Shown here: positions 2,340 through 16,342 of the stretch, in pieces | Position numbering within the stretch: position 1 is the stretch's first letter | How the letters are laid out: each line of letters starts with the position of its first letter | NCBI GenBank assembly: GCA_013003425.1 | Contig: JABDJB010000109.1 | Span: forward strand, 1 to 33,440 | Origin: Gammaproteobacteria bacterium | GTDB taxonomy: Bacteria; Pseudomonadota; Gammaproteobacteria; Steroidobacterales; JABDKV01 | Direction: 5' to 3' | Length of the DNA: 33,440 nt | Position numbers and translations under genes: made by a program | The notes under the pieces: generated by a model | The model's input: only the letters and a program-made list of their open reading frames with translations | Told to the model about the DNA's origin: nothing | The model's database searches: none

Positions 2340-2438
2340 GAGCGGCTAGTTGTGAACCAATTCCACTGCCCGCCCGGTCGCTGCGGTACACTCGGTCGCT
2401 TCGCGCGATCCGATACGCGCCGGGGCAGTATCTTCCAA

Positions 2439-3920
2439 ATGGCCGACAGCGAAAGAACGAAAGTCAGGCAGGCAATGATAACGGGCGTGCGCTGGCTGGC
2501 AATGGCCCGCCTGCTTGCCCAGACATCGAGCTGGGTCATTACGTTTATCGTGATACGCCTGCTCAGCCCGACTGATTACGGTCTGCAGGCAATGGTCAGC
2601 GTGGTCTATACGCTGCTGCTACTCATTACATCATCGGGCTTTGATCGCGCGATTGCCCGCCAGAAAACCTTTGGCGACGCGGAGCTGCGACAGATGCTTG
2701 GTTTCAGCCTGCTGCTGAATACTCTTCTTTTGGCTGCCGTTTGGGCTGCAGCGCCGCTGGTGGCCACGTACTATCAGGAGCCGGCTGTAATTCCTGTCCT
2801 GCGTGCGTTGTCATTTGGTTTTCTGCTGAACGTGTTCAGCAAAATCCCGATTGGTCTGGCCTGGCGCAACCTGGATTACCGTACACATGCGCTGGCAAAG
2901 CTGAGCGGGACCATCACTGCAAGCCTGGCCACACTGCTGCTGGCGTTGCTTGGTGCCGGCGTCTGGGCCCTGATTATCGGTATGCTCGTGGGCCCCGCGA
3001 TCAGCGCCTTGTATCTGCAGTTCAGGACACGCTGGCTCGTGTTGCCGGATTTCACGTTCAATCGTGCCGCTTCCGCCATCCGGTACGCCTGGACAATCAG
3101 CCTCGGTTTTTTTGTCTGGATGCTCTCGTCGCGGCTGGATATTCTGCTGGGCGGGCGGCAGCTGGATGCTGCGGAGCTTGGCCTCTATGCTGTTGCGCTT
3201 CAGCTCTGCACACTACCGATGCGCAAGGTCGTGCCGCTTGCTCATGAGGTGCTGTACCCGGCCTACGCGCGACTGCAAAACGACAGCGCTGCAGTATCTG
3301 GCTATTTCCACAAGTCGCTGGCCAGTCTCAGCCTGCTGCTGTTCCCCGGTTTTTTCGGCCTGGCGGCCGTTAGTGCCTGGGCGGTACCGGTACTTTTTGG
3401 TGAGCGCTGGCTGGGCGCCGAGCACATTATTGCGATCGTGGCGCTGGCCATGCCATTCCGGGTCGTTACTGCGATGTGTAACCCGATGCTGCAAGCGACA
3501 GGTAATGCCGGTGTCTCGTTGTCTACCGGAATATTCGCTTCTGCCTTCACGGCGATCGCTTTATTGGTTGGATTGCAATGGGGGGTAACCGGCCTGGCCG
3601 CCGCCACCCTGGCAGCGGCCCCTGTCGTTATGTCAGTTGTAGTCTGGCAAACCCGGCAGTCCTCGGGGCTGTCATTCAGAACGCTGGGGGCCGGTATCGC
3701 GCCGCCACTGGTATTATCTGCGCTGATGGCGATAATAATATACCGCGTCGGTATCGCATTGACGTCGGAGCTCTCACTGGCGTTGGTCCTGATATTGCAG
3801 ATCATCGCCGGCATAATCATCTACTTCGCATTGGCGTATGTCTTTTCTCGCAATAACCTGGTGTCGACAGTCAGTATTATCCGCACCAGCCTGAACAGAC
3901 GCAGCCGTCGTTCCGAGTAA
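2439..3920 (+). CDS. Oligosaccharide/polysaccharide flippase family protein (Wzx/PST-like)
   Basis: Multi-pass membrane protein of the MATE-like polysaccharide transporter group (COG2244-type), expected to flip lipid-linked saccharide units across the inner membrane. The N-terminus (TGVRWLAMARLLAQTSSWVITF, then IRLLSPTDYGL) is typical. About 12-14 hydrophobic helices cover the whole length. An in-frame GTG at 2352 would add 29 residues rich in Cys, Pro and Gly that do not look like this family. I chose ATG 2439 (493 aa), which gives the usual length and a short hydrophilic N-terminus. GGGGCAG about 9 nt upstream is a weak ribosome site. The deacetylase gene starts 10 nt after the stop, so the two are probably one operon. 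With the O-ligase nearby this suits export of a repeat-unit polysaccharide; the exact sugar is unknown. Confidence 0.88.
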   Translation: MADSERTKVRQAMITGVRWLAMARLLAQTSSWVITFIVIRLLSPTDYGLQAMVSVVYTLLLLITSSGFDRAIARQKTFGDAELRQMLGFSLLLNTLLLAAVWAAAPLVATYYQEPAVIPVLRALSFGFLLNVFSKIPIGLAWRNLDYRTHALAKLSGTITASLATLLLALLGAGVWALIIGMLVGPAISALYLQFRTRWLVLPDFTFNRAASAIRYAWTISLGFFVWMLSSRLDILLGGRQLDAAELGLYAVALQLCTLPMRKVVPLAHEVLYPAYARLQNDSAAVSGYFHKSLASLSLLLFPGFFGLAAVSAWAVPVLFGERWLGAEHIIAIVALAMPFRVVTAMCNPMLQATGNAGVSLSTGIFASAFTAIALLVGLQWGVTGLAAATLAAAPVVMSVVVWQTRQSSGLSFRTLGAGIAPPLVLSALMAIIIYRVGIALTSELSLALVLILQIIAGIIIYFALAYVFSRNNLVSTVSIIRTSLNRRSRRSE

Positions 3921-3930
3921 TCACAAGGCA

Positions 3931-4866
3931 ATGAGTAAAAGCAACGGCCGCGCCAGAACGGCATTGAAAAAATGGGTAGACCTGCGCTCACCATCCGGTG
4001 ACGATGGCCGGCTGCTGATTATTAAGTATCACCGGGCCGAAAAGAGTGCGCATCAAGGTTCCGGCGGTCGCACGCTGGAGGAATTCGACGCGCAGATCGA
4101 GCTGCTGGGCAGCGTATTCAATACCCTGACCGTGGCCGATGCTGCGCAGCGCATCAGGACCGGAACACTGCCCGAGCGAGCCCTGTGCATTACATTCGAT
4201 GATGGCTACGCTGACAACTATGTAACTGCCCTGCCAATTCTGGAGCGGTATGGGCTCAAGGCTACTTTTTTTGTGCCCAGTGGGCTGATCGAACAGTCAA
4301 TCATGTGGAGCGACCAGATTGCCAACGCATTCGCCACAGCTGCTGAAGATGGTTTGCCACAGATGCGCAACTATCTTGCCGATGCCGGTATGCCGGTACG
4401 CTTTCCCGACCTGATGGCAAAACTGAAATACATGTCGGTCGATGCGCAGGAGACCATAGTTCGCGGCCTGTCAAAGTTCGGCAACATCGAGAGCGATTCG
4501 TGCCAGCTGATGAGTGCCGATCAGGTGCGTGGGCTGGTGGCTCGCGGTATGGAGGTCGGTGGGCACACCGTCAATCACACCATCCTGACAAATGCTTCGG
4601 ATGAGCTTGCGTATGACGAGATTAAAAACTGCAAGTTGCAGCTCGAGGTGATTATTGGCGAGCCGGTGCAGTCATTCGCTTACCCCAACGGGCGTCGTGA
4701 CCAGGATTACAGCGAGCGCGACGTCGGCATTGTACGTGACGCCGGATTCGCCGCCGCAGTCAACACCGAGTTCGGTCTTGCCCGCGGCGGCGATCATGTT
4801 TACGAACTGCCGCGCATTCCGCAGTATTTCATCACGCCATTACGCCTGTTCCGGGTGTATACCTGA
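3931..4866 (+). CDS. Polysaccharide deacetylase family protein (NodB domain)
   Basis: Predicted carbohydrate esterase 4 enzyme, removing N- or O-acetyl groups from a polysaccharide. The NodB motifs are visible in 311 aa. Motif 1 is TFDDG (residues 88-92, D90 catalytic base and D91 metal ligand). Motif 2 is H212-T-V-N-H216 (metal histidines). Motif 3 is represented by AYPNGR (250-255), a variant of RxxPY seen in polysaccharide-biosynthesis deacetylases. There is no clear signal peptide; the N-terminus is basic, so it may act in the cytoplasm or at the membrane. It starts 10 nt after the flippase stop (same operon) and ends 6 bp from the convergent lipoprotein gene, with no hairpin terminator seen in the gap. 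The substrate is probably the locus exopolysaccharide, by context only. Confidence 0.9.
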   Translation: MSKSNGRARTALKKWVDLRSPSGDDGRLLIIKYHRAEKSAHQGSGGRTLEEFDAQIELLGSVFNTLTVADAAQRIRTGTLPERALCITFDDGYADNYVTALPILERYGLKATFFVPSGLIEQSIMWSDQIANAFATAAEDGLPQMRNYLADAGMPVRFPDLMAKLKYMSVDAQETIVRGLSKFGNIESDSCQLMSADQVRGLVARGMEVGGHTVNHTILTNASDELAYDEIKNCKLQLEVIIGEPVQSFAYPNGRRDQDYSERDVGIVRDAGFAAAVNTEFGLARGGDHVYELPRIPQYFITPLRLFRVYT

Positions 4867-4872
4867 GCCGCA

Positions 4873-7479
4873 CTAGCGCGGCACGATAGCCCAGGACGGA
4901 TCTTCGTAAAAACGCGGCTGCCGCGGCGCGTTGACCAGCCGCTGCCATGCCAGCGTAGACCACGGCTGGTTAAATTCCACCGCGGCGGCGATTACCGGGC
5001 GCATCGTTGCCGGATAACCGGTGGGATGGTTCGGAAAGCCGGAAAAGTCCGCGGAGCTGGACAGGCTTGCCGCTGTAGCCATCGCGTCGGTGCCACACTC
5101 CAGCGTGCTGATTTCCTGCCAGTTGGAGTACGAATTCCTCAAGGTTTCGATCCACGACTCGGCCATGGTGCTGAACCAGAGGCTCGGACTGGCATCCGGT
5201 GCCACCCACTGTTTGCCAACGGTGGCGAGCTGCCAGCAATAGACGTCGTCCGTCATACGGTTTTTTACAAATTCGAGCTTCCATTCGAGCACCGGAAGGA
5301 CCTCGTCGAGACCTAAATGGCGACCGTAGTTGAGGGAAGCAGTAAAGAAATCGTCCTGCCACGGCGAGATATCAGACCTTGTTGCGGCGCCTGTCCTGAT
5401 CCAGTTGAGCTGGTTGCTTGACGGGTTGTCGACGTACTCGGTCATGTAAAAGGCAATGTTGTTGTCCAGCTGAGCCTGAAAGTAGTTTTTCAGAGGATGC
5501 GTGTCCGGGGTCACAAATACTGTCTGCAGCAAGGTTCGCATCGACCACGCCTGGCCGCGCACCTGCTGCCATTTGTAAAGGGCGCTGCTGTAGTTGCGAT
5601 TGCCGGCGGAGGTCTCGAACGAGTTCCAGTTGGTCCAGAAATGCAGCTCCTCCAGGAAATAGTGATCGCCACTTAGCAGGTAGGGAACGTAGGCCATCGA
5701 GGGCTGGTGAGCCGTATCGGGCTTCAGGTCAGTGCCGCAATTACTGCACGACGGGAGCGGGTTGCTCGGGTCGTTGTAAGTATTCGAATGCGTAGTCACT
5801 TCGGGATACGTTTCGAGTGATACCGGCAGGCGTGTTGCCCGGTCACGGAAATGAATTGGCCAGTGCGCGGCGGCGTTGCCGGTACCGAAGGTGGCGTCGG
5901 CTGCGCGCTGATCCATGGTGAGCAGATAACTCGCTGCCCAGCCCGGCAGGATGCCGATATCAGGCCGGCCACCGGCGTTGGTCATGACCTCGTTTGCCAT
6001 GCCGGCGCCCATCAGCGCATCACGCTGGATTCCGGTCCGGTTTCCTGTCGAGGCCATGCTGGAGGCCATGCCGGCCAGCGTTCCAGGTTCTACCGTCACG
6101 CTGCGGTCATAGTTCGGGACGCTGCCGGATTCGATCAGGTAGTCGACATCACGCTGCAGGAAAACGTCATGGTCGCTGCCGAACCAGAAAGTCTGGCGCC
6201 AGCGCGAGTGATGGTTGTGAGGAACCTGTTGAGCTGACATCAGCGTAGTGCTGCCGGCAGTGATTGAAGCTGTGTAGGTCTGGTTTGCGATGCCGGCAAC
6301 AAAGCTGGACGTATTCTCAACGATGACGTCGACACGGGTCGCTCCGGACTGATACTGACGCAGCTGGAACAGGGCTTCCAGCAGCGGATGCTCGGAATTG
6401 CTGCTGTTGAGGAATGGCGCCACATAGTGTGTTTCGGTTACGACGTCGCCCTCCAGCCAGTAGCTGGCAGTGCTTTGCGACATCGCCTGCTGCAGCGAGG
6501 CGGTGTATGTCTGGTTGGAAATGTTGATTGCAACGGTCGTGTTTTGTGCATCGGGAATGACCGTAGCCTCGACCGGTGGGGCCGGCTCATACTCTTCACA
6601 AGTCATCAGTTCCAGACGCAGCTGATCACCACCCTGCAGCTGGGGTACGACAGTTGACAGCACGGCATGTTTCAGTGAGCCATCCGCGTACCAGGCCTTA
6701 CTGTCGACCTGCAGCGGTACTGTATCGCCATTTTCCAGGCGGGCCGAAACGGTGAAGCCGGGTTGTACATGACCGGCGACAAACACCTGGCCAAATGTCA
6801 GCGGTACGTTTGATTCCAAAGTGGCATTGTTGATGATATCGACGTGGCTGATGACGGGCCCCTGACCGGGAGGCAGGGCTGTCACGCTTTTGCTGGCTGA
6901 CAATGTCTCGCCGTCACTGGCGGTGCCGACGAGGGACACGCTGTACTCACCGGTCTCGTCGGTAGTAAATTCGGCCGTTGCGCCGCTGGAAGTCAGCACG
7001 GCGTTGCTGGCGGGCGGGCTTGTTTCCAGAACCCAGTCATACGTCATTGAGCTGTCGGGGCTGTCGACCGCAAGCGTAACGACTTCGCCGGTGGAAACGT
7101 AATCCGGTGCGACTATGTCAACGTCGGGCGGCGGATCGCTTGGCGGCGGATCGCTCGGCGGCGGATCGCTTGGCGGTGGATCGCTCGGCGGCGGATCGCT
7201 CGGCGGCGGATCGCTCGGCGGCGGATCGCTCGGCGGCGGTAACACGGGACCGTCGTGCCCGTCGTCATCATCGTCTTCGCTCGGCGGCGGATCACTTTGT
7301 TCCTCCGGGGGCGGATTACTCTGATCCTCCGGCGGAGTGCTTGATGCGCTGGTCGGCGGCGGTGGTGCGTCCAGCGACTCGGTTTTGGGTTCGGTATCCC
7401 CGCTGCCGCAACCGGCCAGGAGGATGGTGAGTAGCAACGAAGTCATCGGTATGACTATGCCTGAGCTTGCCTGCTTCAT
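4873..7479 (-). CDS. Outer-envelope lipoprotein with PKD-like and RIFT-barrel (YetA/RGLX-like) regions
   Basis: An 867-residue predicted lipoprotein. A signal peptide ends in lipobox LAGC (C24). It is followed by an acidic/proline linker (about 24-119) with seven tandem PPPSD units. A PKD-like beta-sandwich (about 121-205) comes next. Then a segment reading PLTFGQVFVAGHVQPGF and WYADGSLKHAVLS resembles the N-terminal RIFT barrel of the YetA / exo-rhamnogalacturonan lyase (RGLX) group. The Trp-rich C-terminal half (DTAHQPSMAYVPYLLSGDHY) would suit an alpha/alpha toroid. A polysaccharide lyase or binding role is therefore plausible but unproven. I chose ATG 7479 because the signal peptide starts there, GGAG lies about 9 nt upstream, and the longer open frame (to 7680) runs through a riboswitch. 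Expression is probably controlled by cyclic di-GMP. It lies downstream of the O-ligase gene on the same strand, 334 bp away, with its own promoter. Confidence 0.85.
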   Translation of the reverse strand: MKQASSGIVIPMTSLLLTILLAGCGSGDTEPKTESLDAPPPPTSASSTPPEDQSNPPPEEQSDPPPSEDDDDDGHDGPVLPPPSDPPPSDPPPSDPPPSDPPPSDPPPSDPPPSDPPPDVDIVAPDYVSTGEVVTLAVDSPDSSMTYDWVLETSPPASNAVLTSSGATAEFTTDETGEYSVSLVGTASDGETLSASKSVTALPPGQGPVISHVDIINNATLESNVPLTFGQVFVAGHVQPGFTVSARLENGDTVPLQVDSKAWYADGSLKHAVLSTVVPQLQGGDQLRLELMTCEEYEPAPPVEATVIPDAQNTTVAINISNQTYTASLQQAMSQSTASYWLEGDVVTETHYVAPFLNSSNSEHPLLEALFQLRQYQSGATRVDVIVENTSSFVAGIANQTYTASITAGSTTLMSAQQVPHNHHSRWRQTFWFGSDHDVFLQRDVDYLIESGSVPNYDRSVTVEPGTLAGMASSMASTGNRTGIQRDALMGAGMANEVMTNAGGRPDIGILPGWAASYLLTMDQRAADATFGTGNAAAHWPIHFRDRATRLPVSLETYPEVTTHSNTYNDPSNPLPSCSNCGTDLKPDTAHQPSMAYVPYLLSGDHYFLEELHFWTNWNSFETSAGNRNYSSALYKWQQVRGQAWSMRTLLQTVFVTPDTHPLKNYFQAQLDNNIAFYMTEYVDNPSSNQLNWIRTGAATRSDISPWQDDFFTASLNYGRHLGLDEVLPVLEWKLEFVKNRMTDDVYCWQLATVGKQWVAPDASPSLWFSTMAESWIETLRNSYSNWQEISTLECGTDAMATAASLSSSADFSGFPNHPTGYPATMRPVIAAAVEFNQPWSTLAWQRLVNAPRQPRFYEDPSWAIVPR
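7126..7240 (-). repeat. 15-bp tandem repeat encoding PPPSD units
   Basis: Seven full 15-bp units plus a 10-base partial copy lie head to tail inside the lipoprotein gene. The + strand unit is GGCGGCGGATCGCTY with one base of phase; units differ mainly at the C/T after GCT, and one unit has GGTGGA. They encode the Pro-Ser-Asp spacer between the lipid anchor and the folded domains. Such arrays change copy number by slippage, so linker length may vary between strains. Confidence 0.95.
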
Positions 7480-7490
7480 GTGAACGGTCT

Positions 7491-7547
7491 CCGAGCCGAT
7501 CTGAAATTTATCCGACGAACAGGCGACGTCGGTGCAAAGACTCGGTG
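7491..7547 (-). promoter_or_regulatory. Candidate riboswitch expression platform masking the Shine-Dalgarno region
   Basis: Between aptamer and start codon, CCGAGTC (7545-7539) can pair with GGCTCGG (7497-7491). That segment overlaps the 5' part of the GGAG ribosome site at 7493-7490. A second hairpin, CCGACG/CGTCGG (7532-7527 with 7517-7512), would sit inside the loop. No T-run follows either stem, so translational rather than terminator control is more likely. Pairing is inferred by eye and no folding was run. Confidence 0.4.
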
Positions 7548-7584: not shown

Positions 7585-7670
7585 TGCTTCGGCAACCCCG
7601 CTGTCATAGGCAACTGCCCTTAGACCGGTAGCTTTGCGCCCCTGCCTTTCGGACAGGTTCGCCTTTATCG
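7585..7670 (-). ncRNA. Cyclic di-GMP-I (GEMM) riboswitch aptamer
   Basis: On the minus strand the 334-bp gap upstream of the lipoprotein holds the hallmark GEMM-I blocks in order. These are AAAGGCGAACC (5' side of P1), a P2 hairpin closed by a GNRA loop (CCTGTCC-GAAA-GGCAGG), the invariant core CGCAAAGC, the P3 entry CCGGTCTAAGG carrying the tetraloop-receptor-like CTAA, then GACAGCGGGGTTGCCGAAGC closing P1. This is the Rfam cyclic-di-GMP-I pattern. It is oriented with, and 106 nt upstream of, the lipoprotein ATG. Known class members turn transcription or translation on or off in response to c-di-GMP; which direction applies here cannot be read with certainty. No protein starts inside it. Confidence 0.95.
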
Positions 7671-7679
7671 TCGGATGCA

Positions 7680-7708
7680 TTTCTAACAGATCGGGGCCGA
7701 CTCGTCAA
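7680..7708 (-). promoter_or_regulatory. Promoter of the riboswitch-lipoprotein transcript
   Basis: On the minus strand, -35 TTGACG (7708-7703) and -10 TAGAAA (7685-7680) are separated by exactly 17 nt. A TG dinucleotide one base before the -10 makes it an extended -10. Transcription would begin near 7673, only a few bases before the aptamer, which is the expected geometry for a riboswitch leader. Confidence 0.7.
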
Positions 7709-7813: not shown

Positions 7814-9118
7814 TCATTGTGTTTGCGGTCGATACTCATGATTCTGTGCGACAAATTGTGTTTTTTCCTCGCCGGCCAGGCGCGCCGTGACCAGGTCCAG
7901 ATTCATGGAAATGGTCATTATGATCAAAATAAAGTCGTGGTAGGCCATGCTGAGCGCGGCGCCGCCAACGGCAAAGATCACCAGGGTGACTTCCAGCATT
8001 TTTGCCAGCTGGTGTGACCACTCGTCCGGCGTTTCACGTGTCCTTGCCATGGTACGGCGCAAATGCAACCACGTACACAACAGCATCGCGACAAAAAGCC
8101 CGAGGCCGATAAAGCCGTGGTCACCCAGTACCTGGAAATAAATGCTGTGCGCAGCACGGCCGGGACGATCCCAGTCAGGAATGTATTTCTGATAGGTCTG
8201 TGCAATTTCGATGCCGCTGAAGCCGGCGCCAACCAGGGGGCGTGCGGATGCCACTTTCCAGCTGACTGTCCATGCGTCCATTCGCCCGGAAAACGATTTG
8301 TCCTCGGTGACAGAATCTACCGACTGCATCGTCATTACGCGTTCGTGCCATTTGCCTGGCATCAGCGAGATCGTGATCAGGCCGACGGCGGAAACCATTG
8401 TCAGCAGCAGAAAGCGTCCCCTGGCGCGGCGGAAAAAAGCGATGATGCCGACCGCGAGGCCAATAAGCGCACCACGCGAGTACGACGTAATGACGGCGAT
8501 CAGGCAGAAAGCAATAACAACTGTAACCGCGACACGGACCAGCTTGATCGACGACGTGGTGCGCAGGTAGTTAAGTACCGGTAACAGCATGGTCAGCGTG
8601 AGAGCGATATGGTTGTTATCGGAGATCATTGTGTTGGGCGGGCCCTCAAGATAATTCTTGCCGCCGCTACTGAGCGTTTCTGCTACACCGTTGGCGCCGA
8701 AATAACCCAGTGAGATTGCAATGATCCACAACATTGCCTGCATTCTCACCTTGCTGTTTATCAGCGTGGCGACTACAAAAAACAGCACCATGGTTTTTAT
8801 CCGCCGATCCCACAGCGGCCAGCTATGTTCAGGGTGCAGCGCAGTGAAAGTGGTAATCGTCATGTGTACGGTAAACCACAGGGCCAGCCACATGAGCGCA
8901 CGCGAGGGAGGTAATTTTGGTTCGCGCGACATGAACCAGGCGGTCAGCGTGACGCTGGCGATGATCATCACAAAGGGCATGTCATAGGTGAAACCCCATG
9001 ACAGCCGGTGAGGGTTCATGATGGACAGCCAGGTCCAGACCAGGGCGCCGAGGTGCGGCAGCAACAGCGCCGTCGGCGTCACGATCATGATAATCAGCAG
9101 CAGCAGCAGGCTACGCAT
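7814..9118 (-). CDS. O-antigen ligase-like protein, exosortase A system-associated (PEP_O_lig type)
   Basis: A 434-residue polytopic inner-membrane protein with about 10-12 hydrophobic helices and a Wzy_C/O-ligase core. The N-terminal stretch LGALVWTWLSIMNPHRLSWG is a recognisable signature of the putative O-glycosylation ligase found beside XrtA exopolysaccharide genes. A periplasmic region carries SFSGRMDAW and the conserved AAHSIYFQVLGDHGFIGL segment with the family's His. It probably polymerises or transfers glycan units at the periplasmic face. ATG 9118 gives a proper first TM helix; the ribosome site (AGG about 11 nt upstream) is weak. It is divergent from a tiny membrane-protein gene with only 53 bp between them. 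The lipoprotein gene lies downstream on the same strand. Confidence 0.9.
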   Translation of the reverse strand: MRSLLLLLIIMIVTPTALLLPHLGALVWTWLSIMNPHRLSWGFTYDMPFVMIIASVTLTAWFMSREPKLPPSRALMWLALWFTVHMTITTFTALHPEHSWPLWDRRIKTMVLFFVVATLINSKVRMQAMLWIIAISLGYFGANGVAETLSSGGKNYLEGPPNTMISDNNHIALTLTMLLPVLNYLRTTSSIKLVRVAVTVVIAFCLIAVITSYSRGALIGLAVGIIAFFRRARGRFLLLTMVSAVGLITISLMPGKWHERVMTMQSVDSVTEDKSFSGRMDAWTVSWKVASARPLVGAGFSGIEIAQTYQKYIPDWDRPGRAAHSIYFQVLGDHGFIGLGLFVAMLLCTWLHLRRTMARTRETPDEWSHQLAKMLEVTLVIFAVGGAALSMAYHDFILIIMTISMNLDLVTARLAGEEKTQFVAQNHEYRPQTQ

Positions 9119-9344: not shown

Positions 9345-10658
9345 CTAGCACGCCGTAGCCTGCCGCCGCGCCCGGCGACGTGCAAAGCCCGCGCTGTATT
9401 CGTCAACGAAATGACGCAGTAAGGCCCGTTTGAAGCCAAGCTGCGGATCGGCGTCCTGTCCGCGTGACAGCCGGATCATCTGGCGGTAGTACCAGGCCGC
9501 AGCCCCCTGAGCAGTGAGAGCGCGGAATGGAGCAAAGTTGGCAACGCGTCCCGAAACCAACCGGCCCAGGCCCAGGTTCTGCTCATCGCGGCGGGCTGAG
9601 TCTGTCTGCCCGGTCAGCAGCCTGGCCGCAATATCCGGCTCCATGCAGAACGGGCGTGCCATACCGACAACATCAAGCTCACCGTTGTCGAGTGCCTGTT
9701 GCATGGCGGCTGCATCGCGGAAGCCGCCGGTAACCGCCATGGGGATGCTGCACACCGCACGTATCGCCTGCGCATACTGCAGAAAATAAGCCTCGCGTTG
9801 GCGTGTGCTTTCGCGCGATGTGATCGGACTCTCAGCTCGCTGCGGGTCGCCGCTTTGGCCAAGCAACCGGGGTTGTTCGTAAGTACCACCGGAGATTTCC
9901 AGCAGGTCGATGTCTTCCTTCTCCAGCATCTGTGCGACCAGGCAACTTTCACTGAGCGAGAAGCCGCCGCGCTGGAAGTCGGCTGAATTCAGCTTCACGG
10001 CAACCGGGTATTGGGGGCCGACCGCGTTGCGTACTGCCCGCACCACCTCAATCAGGAATCGCGCCCGGTGCTGCAGATCGCCGCCCCATTCATCGTTGCG
10101 CACATTGGTCAATGGTGAGAGAAACTGGCTGATCAGGTAGCCGTGGGCAGCATGAATCTGTACGCCGGTGAAGCTGGTCTGCTGGGCCGTTTGCGCTGCA
10201 CGGGCATAGGCATCGATGATTTGTGGAATCTCTTCAGTCTCGAGTGCACGCGGGCGAGCAAAATTATTAAGAATTTTCAGCCGGACCGGGGATGGTGAAA
10301 CAGGTCGGTTATTTACCAGGCGACTGCACTGCCGTCCGGGATGGCTGATCTGCATCCACAGATGGTTGCCGGCTGCGGTTCCGGCCTGAGCGAGCCGGTG
10401 CAGTTTATCTGTGCCGCCGTTGTCGTCGATCACCAGGTTGCCGGGCCGTTCCAGGTAGCGCCTGTCAACCATTACATTCCCCGTTATCAGCAACCCCGCA
10501 CCGCCGTCGGACCAGCGCCGGTACAACGTCTCCAGCGCCGGTGTGGAGTGACCGGCAACGTCGGCCAGGCCTTCGGTCATGGCCGCTTTCATCAGGCGGT
10601 TGGGCAGCTCGGCACCACAACCGAGCAGCAGGGCGTCACCCGGAGATAAACGGGGCAT
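9345..10658 (-). CDS. NADH:flavin oxidoreductase, Old Yellow Enzyme family
   Basis: FMN-dependent TIM-barrel oxidoreductase expected to reduce activated C=C bonds with NAD(P)H. The 437 aa contain NRLMKAAMTEGLAD near the start (FMN phosphate-side strand), MQISHPGRQ, then H169-A-A-H172-G-Y174 with QFLSP and RNDEWGG, the classic OYE active-site block. AVTGGF and VGMARPFCMEPD are the C-terminal FMN phosphate-binding segments. The length is that of a stand-alone barrel; the Fe-S and FAD domains of 2,4-dienoyl-CoA reductase are absent. The C-terminus is Arg-rich. Its ATG overlaps the sulfotransferase stop by one base (TGATG), so the pair is probably translationally coupled. The physiological substrate is unknown. 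Confidence 0.92.
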   Translation of the reverse strand: MPRLSPGDALLLGCGAELPNRLMKAAMTEGLADVAGHSTPALETLYRRWSDGGAGLLITGNVMVDRRYLERPGNLVIDDNGGTDKLHRLAQAGTAAGNHLWMQISHPGRQCSRLVNNRPVSPSPVRLKILNNFARPRALETEEIPQIIDAYARAAQTAQQTSFTGVQIHAAHGYLISQFLSPLTNVRNDEWGGDLQHRARFLIEVVRAVRNAVGPQYPVAVKLNSADFQRGGFSLSESCLVAQMLEKEDIDLLEISGGTYEQPRLLGQSGDPQRAESPITSRESTRQREAYFLQYAQAIRAVCSIPMAVTGGFRDAAAMQQALDNGELDVVGMARPFCMEPDIAARLLTGQTDSARRDEQNLGLGRLVSGRVANFAPFRALTAQGAAAWYYRQMIRLSRGQDADPQLGFKRALLRHFVDEYSAGFARRRARRQATAC

Positions 10659-11638
10659 CAGCCGGAAGTTGGGTTGGAGGTAAAACGGCGACCGAGCTCA
10701 CTGGCTGAAACAATTTCGCGCACTGCTGCGATTTGTTCCGCGTCTAGTTCCTGCTGCCATTTGGTCAGGGCTGAAGTTGGAGATCTTCTGACAGAAAAGT
10801 AGCGGCTGGTATCACCCAGCCCCTGAAGTTCGTTGACAAAAGATGCTGTCTGAGCATTTTCTTCCAGGTCAAGAAACTCGAACAGCGAGTGCATCTGGGC
10901 CGGCAGGTCGCTGCACAGGTCTTCATAGATGACCAGGCGATAGTCATCATGCTGGTGCATGTCGTCATATACCTGCTGGTTGATGGCCATCCAGGCAAAG
11001 GCCATCTGCTCTTCTATGGTCTTGCCCTCAAGCGTCTGCTTGTCGAACCCGAAATTTCCGCCGCGGCCGGCAGAAAATATTGCATCCAGGAAGACATCGC
11101 CCGGCATGCGGCCCAGACTGATGCCGCGCAGACGCGAGGCCACGACTGCGCAGGGATGACGCACCAGGTGCACTACGACCAGGTCCGGACGCGCGAGCTT
11201 GAGCAGTCGCGTGCGCCACAGCGAACTTACGGTCTTCATCAGGTAACGCGGCGTTGTGCCACGTGCCAGGTCCGGAACCGGTAGCCCGGCAACACGATCC
11301 AGCGCTCTGGCCGTGGTTGACCAGCCACGGTGGACCAGCTCGGCCAGCCGGCCGCGGTAGCTCTTGCGAAAGAATGGCCGACTGCCGGAGGCGGTTGCGT
11401 TACCGGACCGTAGCAACTTGTCGAGATACTCTGCGGCATTGCGGATCATCTCCGGGTCCGGATGGTCCGGCGGCAGGTACGGAATCGCATCTGTGCGCAG
11501 GGCTTTGTCCGGCTCGTAACGCAGCAGGATGTCGGGATGACTGTCGATGAGCTTCGCAGCGAAAGTCGTCCCCGAGCGGCCCGAGCCCGCTAGCAGGATA
11601 GGTCTGTTGCCTACAGGCGATTGCATACGCGTGTCCAC
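10658..11638 (-). CDS. Sulfotransferase family protein
   Basis: Predicted PAPS-dependent sulfotransferase (326 aa). The 5'-phosphosulfate loop is G18-S-G-R-S-G-T-T25. The 3'-phosphate motif is LVRHPCAVVASRL, with R160 and S168 as the expected ligands. RLVIYEDLCSDL and the C-terminal KW segment are also typical of bacterial carbohydrate-type sulfotransferases. The frame begins at GTG 11638; an ATG at 11626 (fifth codon) is an equally good start, and neither has a strong ribosome site. It is coupled to the downstream OYE gene by a TGATG overlap and divergent from fmdB across 142 bp. Lying near the O-ligase, flippase and deacetylase, it may sulfate the exopolysaccharide, and a sulfatase occurs 4 kb away; this link is inferred. 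Confidence 0.88.
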   Translation of the reverse strand: MDTRMQSPVGNRPILLAGSGRSGTTFAAKLIDSHPDILLRYEPDKALRTDAIPYLPPDHPDPEMIRNAAEYLDKLLRSGNATASGSRPFFRKSYRGRLAELVHRGWSTTARALDRVAGLPVPDLARGTTPRYLMKTVSSLWRTRLLKLARPDLVVVHLVRHPCAVVASRLRGISLGRMPGDVFLDAIFSAGRGGNFGFDKQTLEGKTIEEQMAFAWMAINQQVYDDMHQHDDYRLVIYEDLCSDLPAQMHSLFEFLDLEENAQTASFVNELQGLGDTSRYFSVRRSPTSALTKWQQELDAEQIAAVREIVSASELGRRFTSNPTSG

Positions 11639-11780: not shown

Positions 11781-12125
11781 ATGCCAATCTACGAGTATCA
11801 ATGTCAGGAGTGCGGTCACCAGATGGACGCATTGCAGCGAATCAGCGAGCCGGTGCTGACAGATTGCCCGGAATGCGGAAAGCCGGCACTGCGCAAGCTG
11901 GTATCAGCGCCCAGCTTCCGGCTCAAGGGCGGTGGCTGGTATGAAACTGATTTCAAGACCGGCAACAAGAAAAACCTCGCCGGGGAGAAGGAGGCCGGCG
12001 CCGGCAAGAAAGGCGACAAGCCTGACGCCAAAGCGAAGAAAGACGGCGATGGGAAGGGCGCCTCAGCCTCTGCCGCCGCCAGCGGCAAGGGCGGCAGTGG
12101 CCCGGGAGGCAGCAAGACAGACTGA
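11781..12125 (+). CDS. FmdB-family zinc-ribbon protein
   Basis: Small putative regulatory protein (114 aa). The N-terminal zinc ribbon has Cys pairs C8-Q-E-C11 and C29-P-E-C32 and the family opening MPIYEYQC. It then has [18 protein letters not shown], which is conserved in FmdB proteins next to aspS. The C-terminal 45 residues are a low-complexity Lys/Gly/Ala/Asp tail of variable type. The biochemical role of the family is not established. It lies 76 nt upstream of aspS on the same strand, the usual arrangement in Gammaproteobacteria, so the two are probably cotranscribed. A GATAAT -10-like element about 50 bp upstream (near 11726) lacks a good -35. Confidence 0.93.
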
Positions 12126-14870: not shown

Positions 14871-14914
14871 ATGTGGTTAAACTAGAGGCCCGTATCGAGT
14901 CTGAAGTCGTGCCG

Positions 14915-16342
14915 ATGAAACAGATCATCGTGGCGTTAACCCTCGCCGCAATCAGCCAAATCTCCACTGCCGCGCCAGACGATGGCGCTACCCGGCCCAA
15001 CGTCATCGTGTTCATGGCTGACGATCTTGGCTGGAATGATGTTGGCTACCACGGCTCAAACATCAAGACGCCAAACATCGACGCGCTGGCGGCACAGGCT
15101 GTGCAACTCGAGCAGTTCTACGTCATGCCGTGGTGCACTGCGACGCGCGCAGCTTTTGAAAGCGGCCTCAACCCGGCCCGATTTGGCATCTTGTCGCTGC
15201 AGCACCCATTCCCTGGGCGCACGGCGCTGCCGCCTGACCTTGCGACCCTGCCGGAACTGCTGCGAAGGCATGGCTACTTCACCGCACTCGTTGGTAAATG
15301 GCACCTGAGCTACAGCTTTGATGGTGGGCCGATCGAGCGCGGCTACCAGCGGGCCTTCGGTTACCTGCACGGGCAGATGGATCACTATACGCACGAGGAT
15401 CAGCGCGGCGTGACGTCGCTGTTTCGCGATGACGAGCTGATCAGCGCCGACGGTCACATGACTGACCTGATCGGTGCCGAGCTGCGCAGCCTGCTGCAGC
15501 AGCCCGGGCAGCCATTCTTTATCAACGTGACTTTCAGTGCCCCGCATTACCCGTTGCAGGCTCCGGCGCAATTCATCGATGCAAACGCGGCCATCGAAAA
15601 TCCGGATCGTCGCCTGTTTGCCGGCATGGTGACTCACATGGATCACGTCATCGGCGAGACCGTGAAATTGCTGGAGTCGCGCGGTTTGTTGACCAATACC
15701 ATCATTATTTTTCTGAGCGACAACGGCGGCGACAACTATTTCGAAAACACCCGGGACTATTATGGCGGCAAACACGGCTCCCACAGCATCATGGCGGATA
15801 ATTCGCCCCTGCGCGGCGCGAAGACGGATGTCTATGAGGGCGGGATCAGGGTGCCGGCATTCATCCACTATCCTGCGGTACTGCAGCCACGCGTTATCGA
15901 TCAATTCACGGCGGTTACGGACCTGCTGCCGACGCTGCTGGACTTTGCAGAAGTCGAGCCACCGGCACAGCGTGATGGCGGCAGCCTGCGGCCTCTGCTA
16001 TCTGGCAAGCCGCAGGTACGCGAACCGGAGTATTACTGGTTTACAAGAAGCGTGAAGATCCCGCACGGGGGAGGTAAGCAAAGCGCGGTGCGGCTGGGCA
16101 ACTGGAAACTGATCGAATCGCAGCGGCGCTTCGCATGGCTGCCATGGCGCTTCGAGTGGCCATGGCCGCGTTTCGAACTGTTTGATCTGGGGCAGGACCC
16201 ACGAGAGCAGGTAAACCTGGCGCGAGACCATTCGGATATTGCCGACAAGCTGCGTGGCCGGCTGGAAGAGTATCGTGCCGAGGTTTTCGCTAGCTACCCG
16301 GGCGCTGACGGGAAAGGGCCTGACGCAGCGCCTCACGATTAG
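14915..16342 (+). CDS. Secreted arylsulfatase-type sulfatase
   Basis: Formylglycine-dependent type I sulfatase (475 aa), expected to hydrolyse sulfate esters in the periplasm or outside the cell. I chose ATG 14915 because it starts a signal peptide (MKQIIVALTLAAISQISTAA); an upstream GTG at 14873 only adds a non-hydrophobic tail. Metal ligands MADD (D36-D37) and FLSDNGGDN are present, as are GKWH and SAPHYPLQAP. The maturation site reads C74-T-A-T-R78, so Ala replaces the Pro of the common CxPxR motif. The general layout resembles arylsulfatase B-like enzymes. Only about 45 bp separate it from the previous terminator, so its promoter must be in that short gap. Its 3' end overlaps the convergent nudB by 53 bp. 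The substrate is unknown; a sulfated polysaccharide is likely by context. Confidence 0.92.
   Translation: MKQIIVALTLAAISQISTAAPDDGATRPNVIVFMADDLGWNDVGYHGSNIKTPNIDALAAQAVQLEQFYVMPWCTATRAAFESGLNPARFGILSLQHPFPGRTALPPDLATLPELLRRHGYFTALVGKWHLSYSFDGGPIERGYQRAFGYLHGQMDHYTHEDQRGVTSLFRDDELISADGHMTDLIGAELRSLLQQPGQPFFINVTFSAPHYPLQAPAQFIDANAAIENPDRRLFAGMVTHMDHVIGETVKLLESRGLLTNTIIIFLSDNGGDNYFENTRDYYGGKHGSHSIMADNSPLRGAKTDVYEGGIRVPAFIHYPAVLQPRVIDQFTAVTDLLPTLLDFAEVEPPAQRDGGSLRPLLSGKPQVREPEYYWFTRSVKIPHGGGKQSAVRLGNWKLIESQRRFAWLPWRFEWPWPRFELFDLGQDPREQVNLARDHSDIADKLRGRLEEYRAEVFASYPGADGKGPDAAPHD

Follow-up and report, generated by a model that had tools for sequence, protein, structure and literature searches.

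Does cyclic di-GMP (c-di-GMP) directly set, through the leader of a single mRNA, the amount of a surface lipoprotein encoded in an exopolysaccharide (EPS) locus, and with which sign? This question was raised by a 33,440-nucleotide stretch of DNA, here called the window, in which an earlier note, made from the letters alone, placed a complete c-di-GMP-I (GEMM-I) aptamer on the minus strand at 7585-7670. All coordinates are window positions unless a contig is named, and G000 is the host genome of the window. We searched the window against Rfam using cmscan. The results showed a single riboswitch, a match to RF01051 covering model positions 1-87 of 87 and scoring 78.4 bits against a gathering score of 35 bits, which confirmed that the segment 7673-7588 (-) is a full-length c-di-GMP-I aptamer of the common class. 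The covariance-model scan proposed in the earlier note was therefore significant; the note had identified the right locus and the right order of the GEMM-I blocks, and its coordinates were off by 3 nt. The coordinates of the features are listed in Table 1.

The aptamer lies in the 5' leader, on the same strand as the lipoprotein gene, and ends 108 nt before the ATG at 7479. The extended -10 promoter that had been read just upstream of it was also found, with a -35 box TTGACG (7708-7703), a 17-nt spacer, a -10 box TAGAAA (7685-7680) and a TG extension (7688-7687). In the leader alignment, CTTTGAC and TAGAAAT with its TG extension were invariant across the four species of the genus. A stringent sigma-70 scan, which requires the sixth base of the -10 hexamer to be T, did not report this promoter. 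The predicted transcript start, at about 7675-7672, coincides with the 5' end of the aptamer. The longest open frame of the lipoprotein (935 aa, 7680-4873) begins at the -10 box itself and continues across the aptamer, which rules it out as the frame translated from this transcript, as had been suspected; among the starts listed for the three congeners, none in the lipoprotein frame was found inside or before the aptamer. The ATG at 7479 is preceded 8 nt upstream by GGAGA and opens an 868-aa frame with the lipobox LLAGC, and on these signals we assign the real start of the lipoprotein to this codon, downstream of the aptamer.

Table 1. Positions of the riboswitch, its leader and the surrounding genes in the window
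Feature	Position	Strand	Basis or remark
Polysaccharide flippase, Wzx-type	2352..3920	+	Pfam PF13440
Polysaccharide deacetylase, convergent gene	3931..4866	+	Pfam PF01522
Controlled gene, 868-aa lipoprotein	4873..7479	-	lipobox, Pfam, AlphaFold2, Foldseek
Shine-Dalgarno GGAGA	7488..7492	-	8 nt before ATG; invariant in four congeners
Candidate platform element CUUUGCACC	7531..7539	-	8-9 of 9 positions pair with aptamer core
c-di-GMP-I (GEMM-I) riboswitch aptamer	7588..7673	-	RF01051, 78.4 bits, E 5.3e-14
Aptamer core GGCGCAAAG, includes A47-equivalent	7632..7640	-	complementary to downstream element
Promoter	7680..7708	-	invariant CTTTGAC and TG.TAGAAAT in four congeners
Exosortase-A-associated O-antigen-ligase-like protein, upstream gene	7814..9118	-	TIGR03097, Wzy_C, DUF5935

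The expression platform was sought in an alignment of the leaders of the host and three congeners (four species of the genus). The results showed a nine-nucleotide element that begins 49-53 nt after the aptamer; it reads CUUUGCGCC, CUUUGCGCU and CUUUGUGUC in the congeners, with the consensus CUUUGCRCC. In all four species 8-9 of its 9 positions pair with the core GGCGCAAAG, and at three of its four variable sites the changes preserve a G-C or G-U pair. This was the best complementarity between aptamer and platform at width 9; it exceeded 1995 of 2000 column permutations and was reached by the other 5. CUUUGCRCC is thus a plausible candidate switch element, for which these four related sequences are suggestive evidence rather than proof. 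Other platforms were rejected. No intrinsic terminator was found on the riboswitch strand, and pairing of the element with the Shine-Dalgarno sequence, which would sequester it, stood at chance level (297/2000 permutations) and was weak in G003. Nor was a platform found that is common to the host genus and to the relatives G010 and G295, whose leaders lack the element and share a different hairpin. Anti-aptamer complementarity was not a general feature when 38 GEMM-I leaders from the order were compared (observed mean 5.5 vs 5.1 in shuffled sequences).

Based on these features, transcription from the promoter ending at 7680 would yield an mRNA whose first ~86 nt form the aptamer, followed by an expression platform of ~108 nt and the gene, so that cellular c-di-GMP would control lipoprotein output through the leader, separately from the adjacent EPS ligase gene. 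Without ligand, CUUUGCRCC would pair with the core and disrupt the binding pocket; with ligand, the aptamer would be locked and the element freed. The freed element could pair weakly with the Shine-Dalgarno sequence, giving translational OFF, and for this reason we lean towards OFF. The lean is only slight, because that pairing is at chance level and because constrained folding with the aptamer held folded, a bound-like state, lowered Shine-Dalgarno opening in two of the four species and changed it little or not at all in the other two.

The opposite sign therefore has to be weighed. The riboswitch may be a genuine c-di-GMP-I switch that works as ON, with c-di-GMP raising the lipoprotein together with EPS synthesis; we put this a little short of an even prospect. 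In EPS loci a lyase is often expressed alongside the synthesis genes, AlgL being an example. The homologue in G002 that has no aptamer lies in the EPS operon, about 19 nt beyond the ligase frame, which is in keeping with ON control, and folding predictions of sign are weak. In Vibrio cholerae, moreover, Vc1 lies upstream of gbpA and, responding to c-di-GMP, regulates this gene positively (PMC4744006). The lowered opening of the Shine-Dalgarno sequence in two species speaks against ON. Translational OFF thus remains slightly favoured in our model: c-di-GMP would reduce the synthesis of a lyase that modifies the matrix, and a fall in c-di-GMP would release it. The complete proposal, in which the riboswitch directly represses a surface PL26-like lyase in an EPS locus by means of an element competing with the aptamer core, is tentative and, taken as a whole, rather doubtful. 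If true, a single RNA step would switch the trimming or release of the matrix.

We next turn to the controlled protein, which the earlier note had described as a large PKD/RIFT-barrel lipoprotein. Its parts follow in the order of a signal peptide with LLAGC, a Pro-rich linker, an Ig/PKD-like domain, a PcRGLX-like RIFT barrel and a C-terminal helical domain, the last being an addition to that description. The lipobox, which ends the signal sequence, is retained in the congeners as read by eye. Only the N-terminal PcRGLX_1st RIFT domain (PF19501) scored above the Pfam cut-off. A structure was predicted by AlphaFold2 with 31 homologues (mean pLDDT 88.9, pTM 0.86), and the top PDB match by Foldseek was the PL26 exo-rhamnogalacturonan lyase PcRGLX (5xq3, 5xqo; E 4e-8). 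VIA-align 2 superposed 502 residues on this lyase with a Z of 13.4 and an rmsd of 4.3. The alignment spans protein residues 208-868 (model residues 91-751), and the lyase was the sole whole-length match among the entries listed, nearly all others covering the N-terminal Ig-like domain alone. TM-scores to PL26 were modest (0.33-0.42) at an identity of about 10-11%, and a PDB search by sequence profile returned no significant chain, so that PL26 was found by fold comparison alone. Compared with PcRGLX, the protein shares the predicted fold and the PcRGLX_1st RIFT domain, but differs in sequence (~11% identity), in being a bacterial lipoprotein with an extra Ig/PKD-like domain and in that its activity is predicted from the fold.

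Because the match is whole-length, the lipoprotein is best described as PL26-like and is probably a carbohydrate-active, lyase-like enzyme, with activity and substrate read from the model. The earlier note had left open whether it binds or degrades polysaccharide; the predicted fold favours degradation. The rival reading, a non-catalytic glycan-binding or structural matrix lipoprotein, is a sizeable minority possibility, given that the N-terminal RIFT domain alone passes the Pfam cut-off and that likeness of fold by itself proves no activity. It is opposed by the C-terminal half, where many polar and aromatic residues are invariant over the 31 homologues (for example H426, R428, H474, R524, W528 and R531 in model numbering), suggesting an active site. 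In other lineages, homologues (L051 and L053 at their C-termini, L108 and L129) carry, as judged by eye, a GlyGly-CTERM-like tail that replaces the lipobox. Lipobox and tail read as two anchoring modes of one surface protein family, so surface anchoring looks like a trait of the family.

The distribution of the aptamer among relatives was then compared with that of the gene. Few genomes of the order carry the lipoprotein gene (10 of 396), and GEMM-I lies directly upstream of it in seven species belonging to two families of the order: G000, G001, G002 (contig 136), G003, G010, G295 and G083. In an eighth species, G004, GEMM-I lies upstream of a diverged paralogue. No GEMM-I was found upstream of the second G004 copy or of the second G002 copy, the latter being the one that follows the ligase frame in a syntenic EPS locus; G164, whose contig ends at this point, was left out of the count. 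Among the 80 best homologous loci in a species-level genome collection (many from Massilia), the aptamer was present at 3 only, all from two to three MAGs of the same genus. The neighbouring gene order varies among the aptamer-bearing species, indicating that the pairing is with the gene and not merely with the neighbourhood. In G010, which carries 21 aptamers in 4.7 Mb, the chance of one falling within ~350 nt of the gene is about 0.002. This stable pairing across relatives suggests that c-di-GMP directly sets the amount of the lipoprotein.

Two further readings concern the aptamer itself. It could be a relic that has lost control of the gene, as the absence of a terminator on its strand and of a strong, general expression platform might imply; this is very improbable, since all core positions are intact in the RF01051 alignment, the aptamer is kept in seven species whose homologues share about 31-53% protein identity, and the promoter and downstream element are conserved within the genus. 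As for the ligand, the bases equivalent to G20, A47 and C92, the ligand-contact positions in Vc2 numbering, read G, A and C, the c-di-GMP type; position 20 is A in cGAMP-sensing GEMM-I variants, and the G in this column was invariant in 34 of 34 aligned aptamers. Although c-AMP-GMP variants occur within GEMM-I aptamers (PMC7266159), sensing of another cyclic dinucleotide, 3',3'-cGAMP, as by the GEMM-I variants of Geobacter, is the least probable reading and was rejected because the specificity position is G, and the match is to RF01051. The genome encodes 33 GGDEF domains, so c-di-GMP is almost certainly made by the host. A functional c-di-GMP riboswitch, with ligand binding predicted from the aptamer sequence, thus very probably controls the lipoprotein; this assessment covers function and control, and the OFF sign and enzyme activity are judged separately above.

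The surroundings agreed with the exopolysaccharide context that had been proposed, with the TIGR03097 ligase upstream and the flippase and deacetylase beyond the lipoprotein. The locus is of the exosortase type and resembles exosortase A/PEP-CTERM EPS loci in the adjoining ligase, in the nearby flippase and deacetylase and in the presence of two exosortases in the genome; it differs from them in that both exosortases lie on other contigs, none being found on the contig of the window, and in that the deacetylase falls far short of the threshold of the XrtA-system model. The window that holds the EPS genes also encodes a sulfotransferase and a sulfatase (10658-11638 and 14873-16342). The polysaccharide of the locus may be sulfated.

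GEMM-I is routine in the order, being present in 44 of 59 relatives, and the host genome holds four such aptamers, three of which precede lipoproteins. The second (L034, G000 contig 16, 2910-2992, -) lies ahead of a DUF1800 lipoprotein gene (917-2812) whose orthologues in G001, G003 and G004 also have aptamers, making another conserved riboswitch-lipoprotein pair. On G000 contig 88 (L035), a lipoprotein of 673 aa, with an aptamer-bearing orthologue in G004 (L143), follows an aptamer at 11811-11888 (+) whose best match is RF03167, the GGC variant. The fourth (L036, G000 contig 45, 9898-9986, -) lies near the gene of a small protein whose tail is PEP-CTERM-like (L004 1716-2330, -). A tandem pair of GEMM-I aptamers, about 110 nt apart, occurs on G003 contig 49 (L136), and close pairs also occur in G015, G028, G034, G049 and G050. 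In three species (L138, L146 and L153), long surface proteins follow GEMM-I aptamers; DUF11 repeats were identified by Pfam in L138, and L146 and L153 appear similar by eye. Since other aptamers precede lipoproteins and long surface proteins, the riboswitch described here belongs to a wider regulon of surface proteins.

GEMM stands for genes for the environment, membranes and motility, and exported surface proteins are the usual GEMM-I targets; what is new about the present target is therefore its family and not the type of protein. The type example of RF01051 is Vc2 of Vibrio cholerae, with which this riboswitch shares the full aptamer consensus, the c-di-GMP-type contact bases and a place in the 5' leader just after the promoter, whereas its platform sequence is specific to the genus and its ligand binding is a prediction. 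Like Vc1 ahead of gbpA, it precedes an exported, carbohydrate-interacting protein; GbpA, however, acts as an adhesin on N-acetylglucosamine surfaces (PMC4744006), and the protein here is a lipoprotein of PL26-like fold in an EPS locus. In the literature searched, nothing relevant was found that links GEMM-I to exosortase/EPS loci or to lyases. The riboswitch is real and of an ordinary class, and its conserved lyase-like target is newly described. The main biofilm second messenger would thereby be tied, in one RNA step, to a conserved, uncharacterised lyase-like surface protein near an EPS locus, giving a testable link from c-di-GMP to matrix remodelling without a protein receptor. For the lineage, the recurrence of GEMM-I aptamers ahead of exported lipoproteins provides a ready list of candidate matrix proteins.
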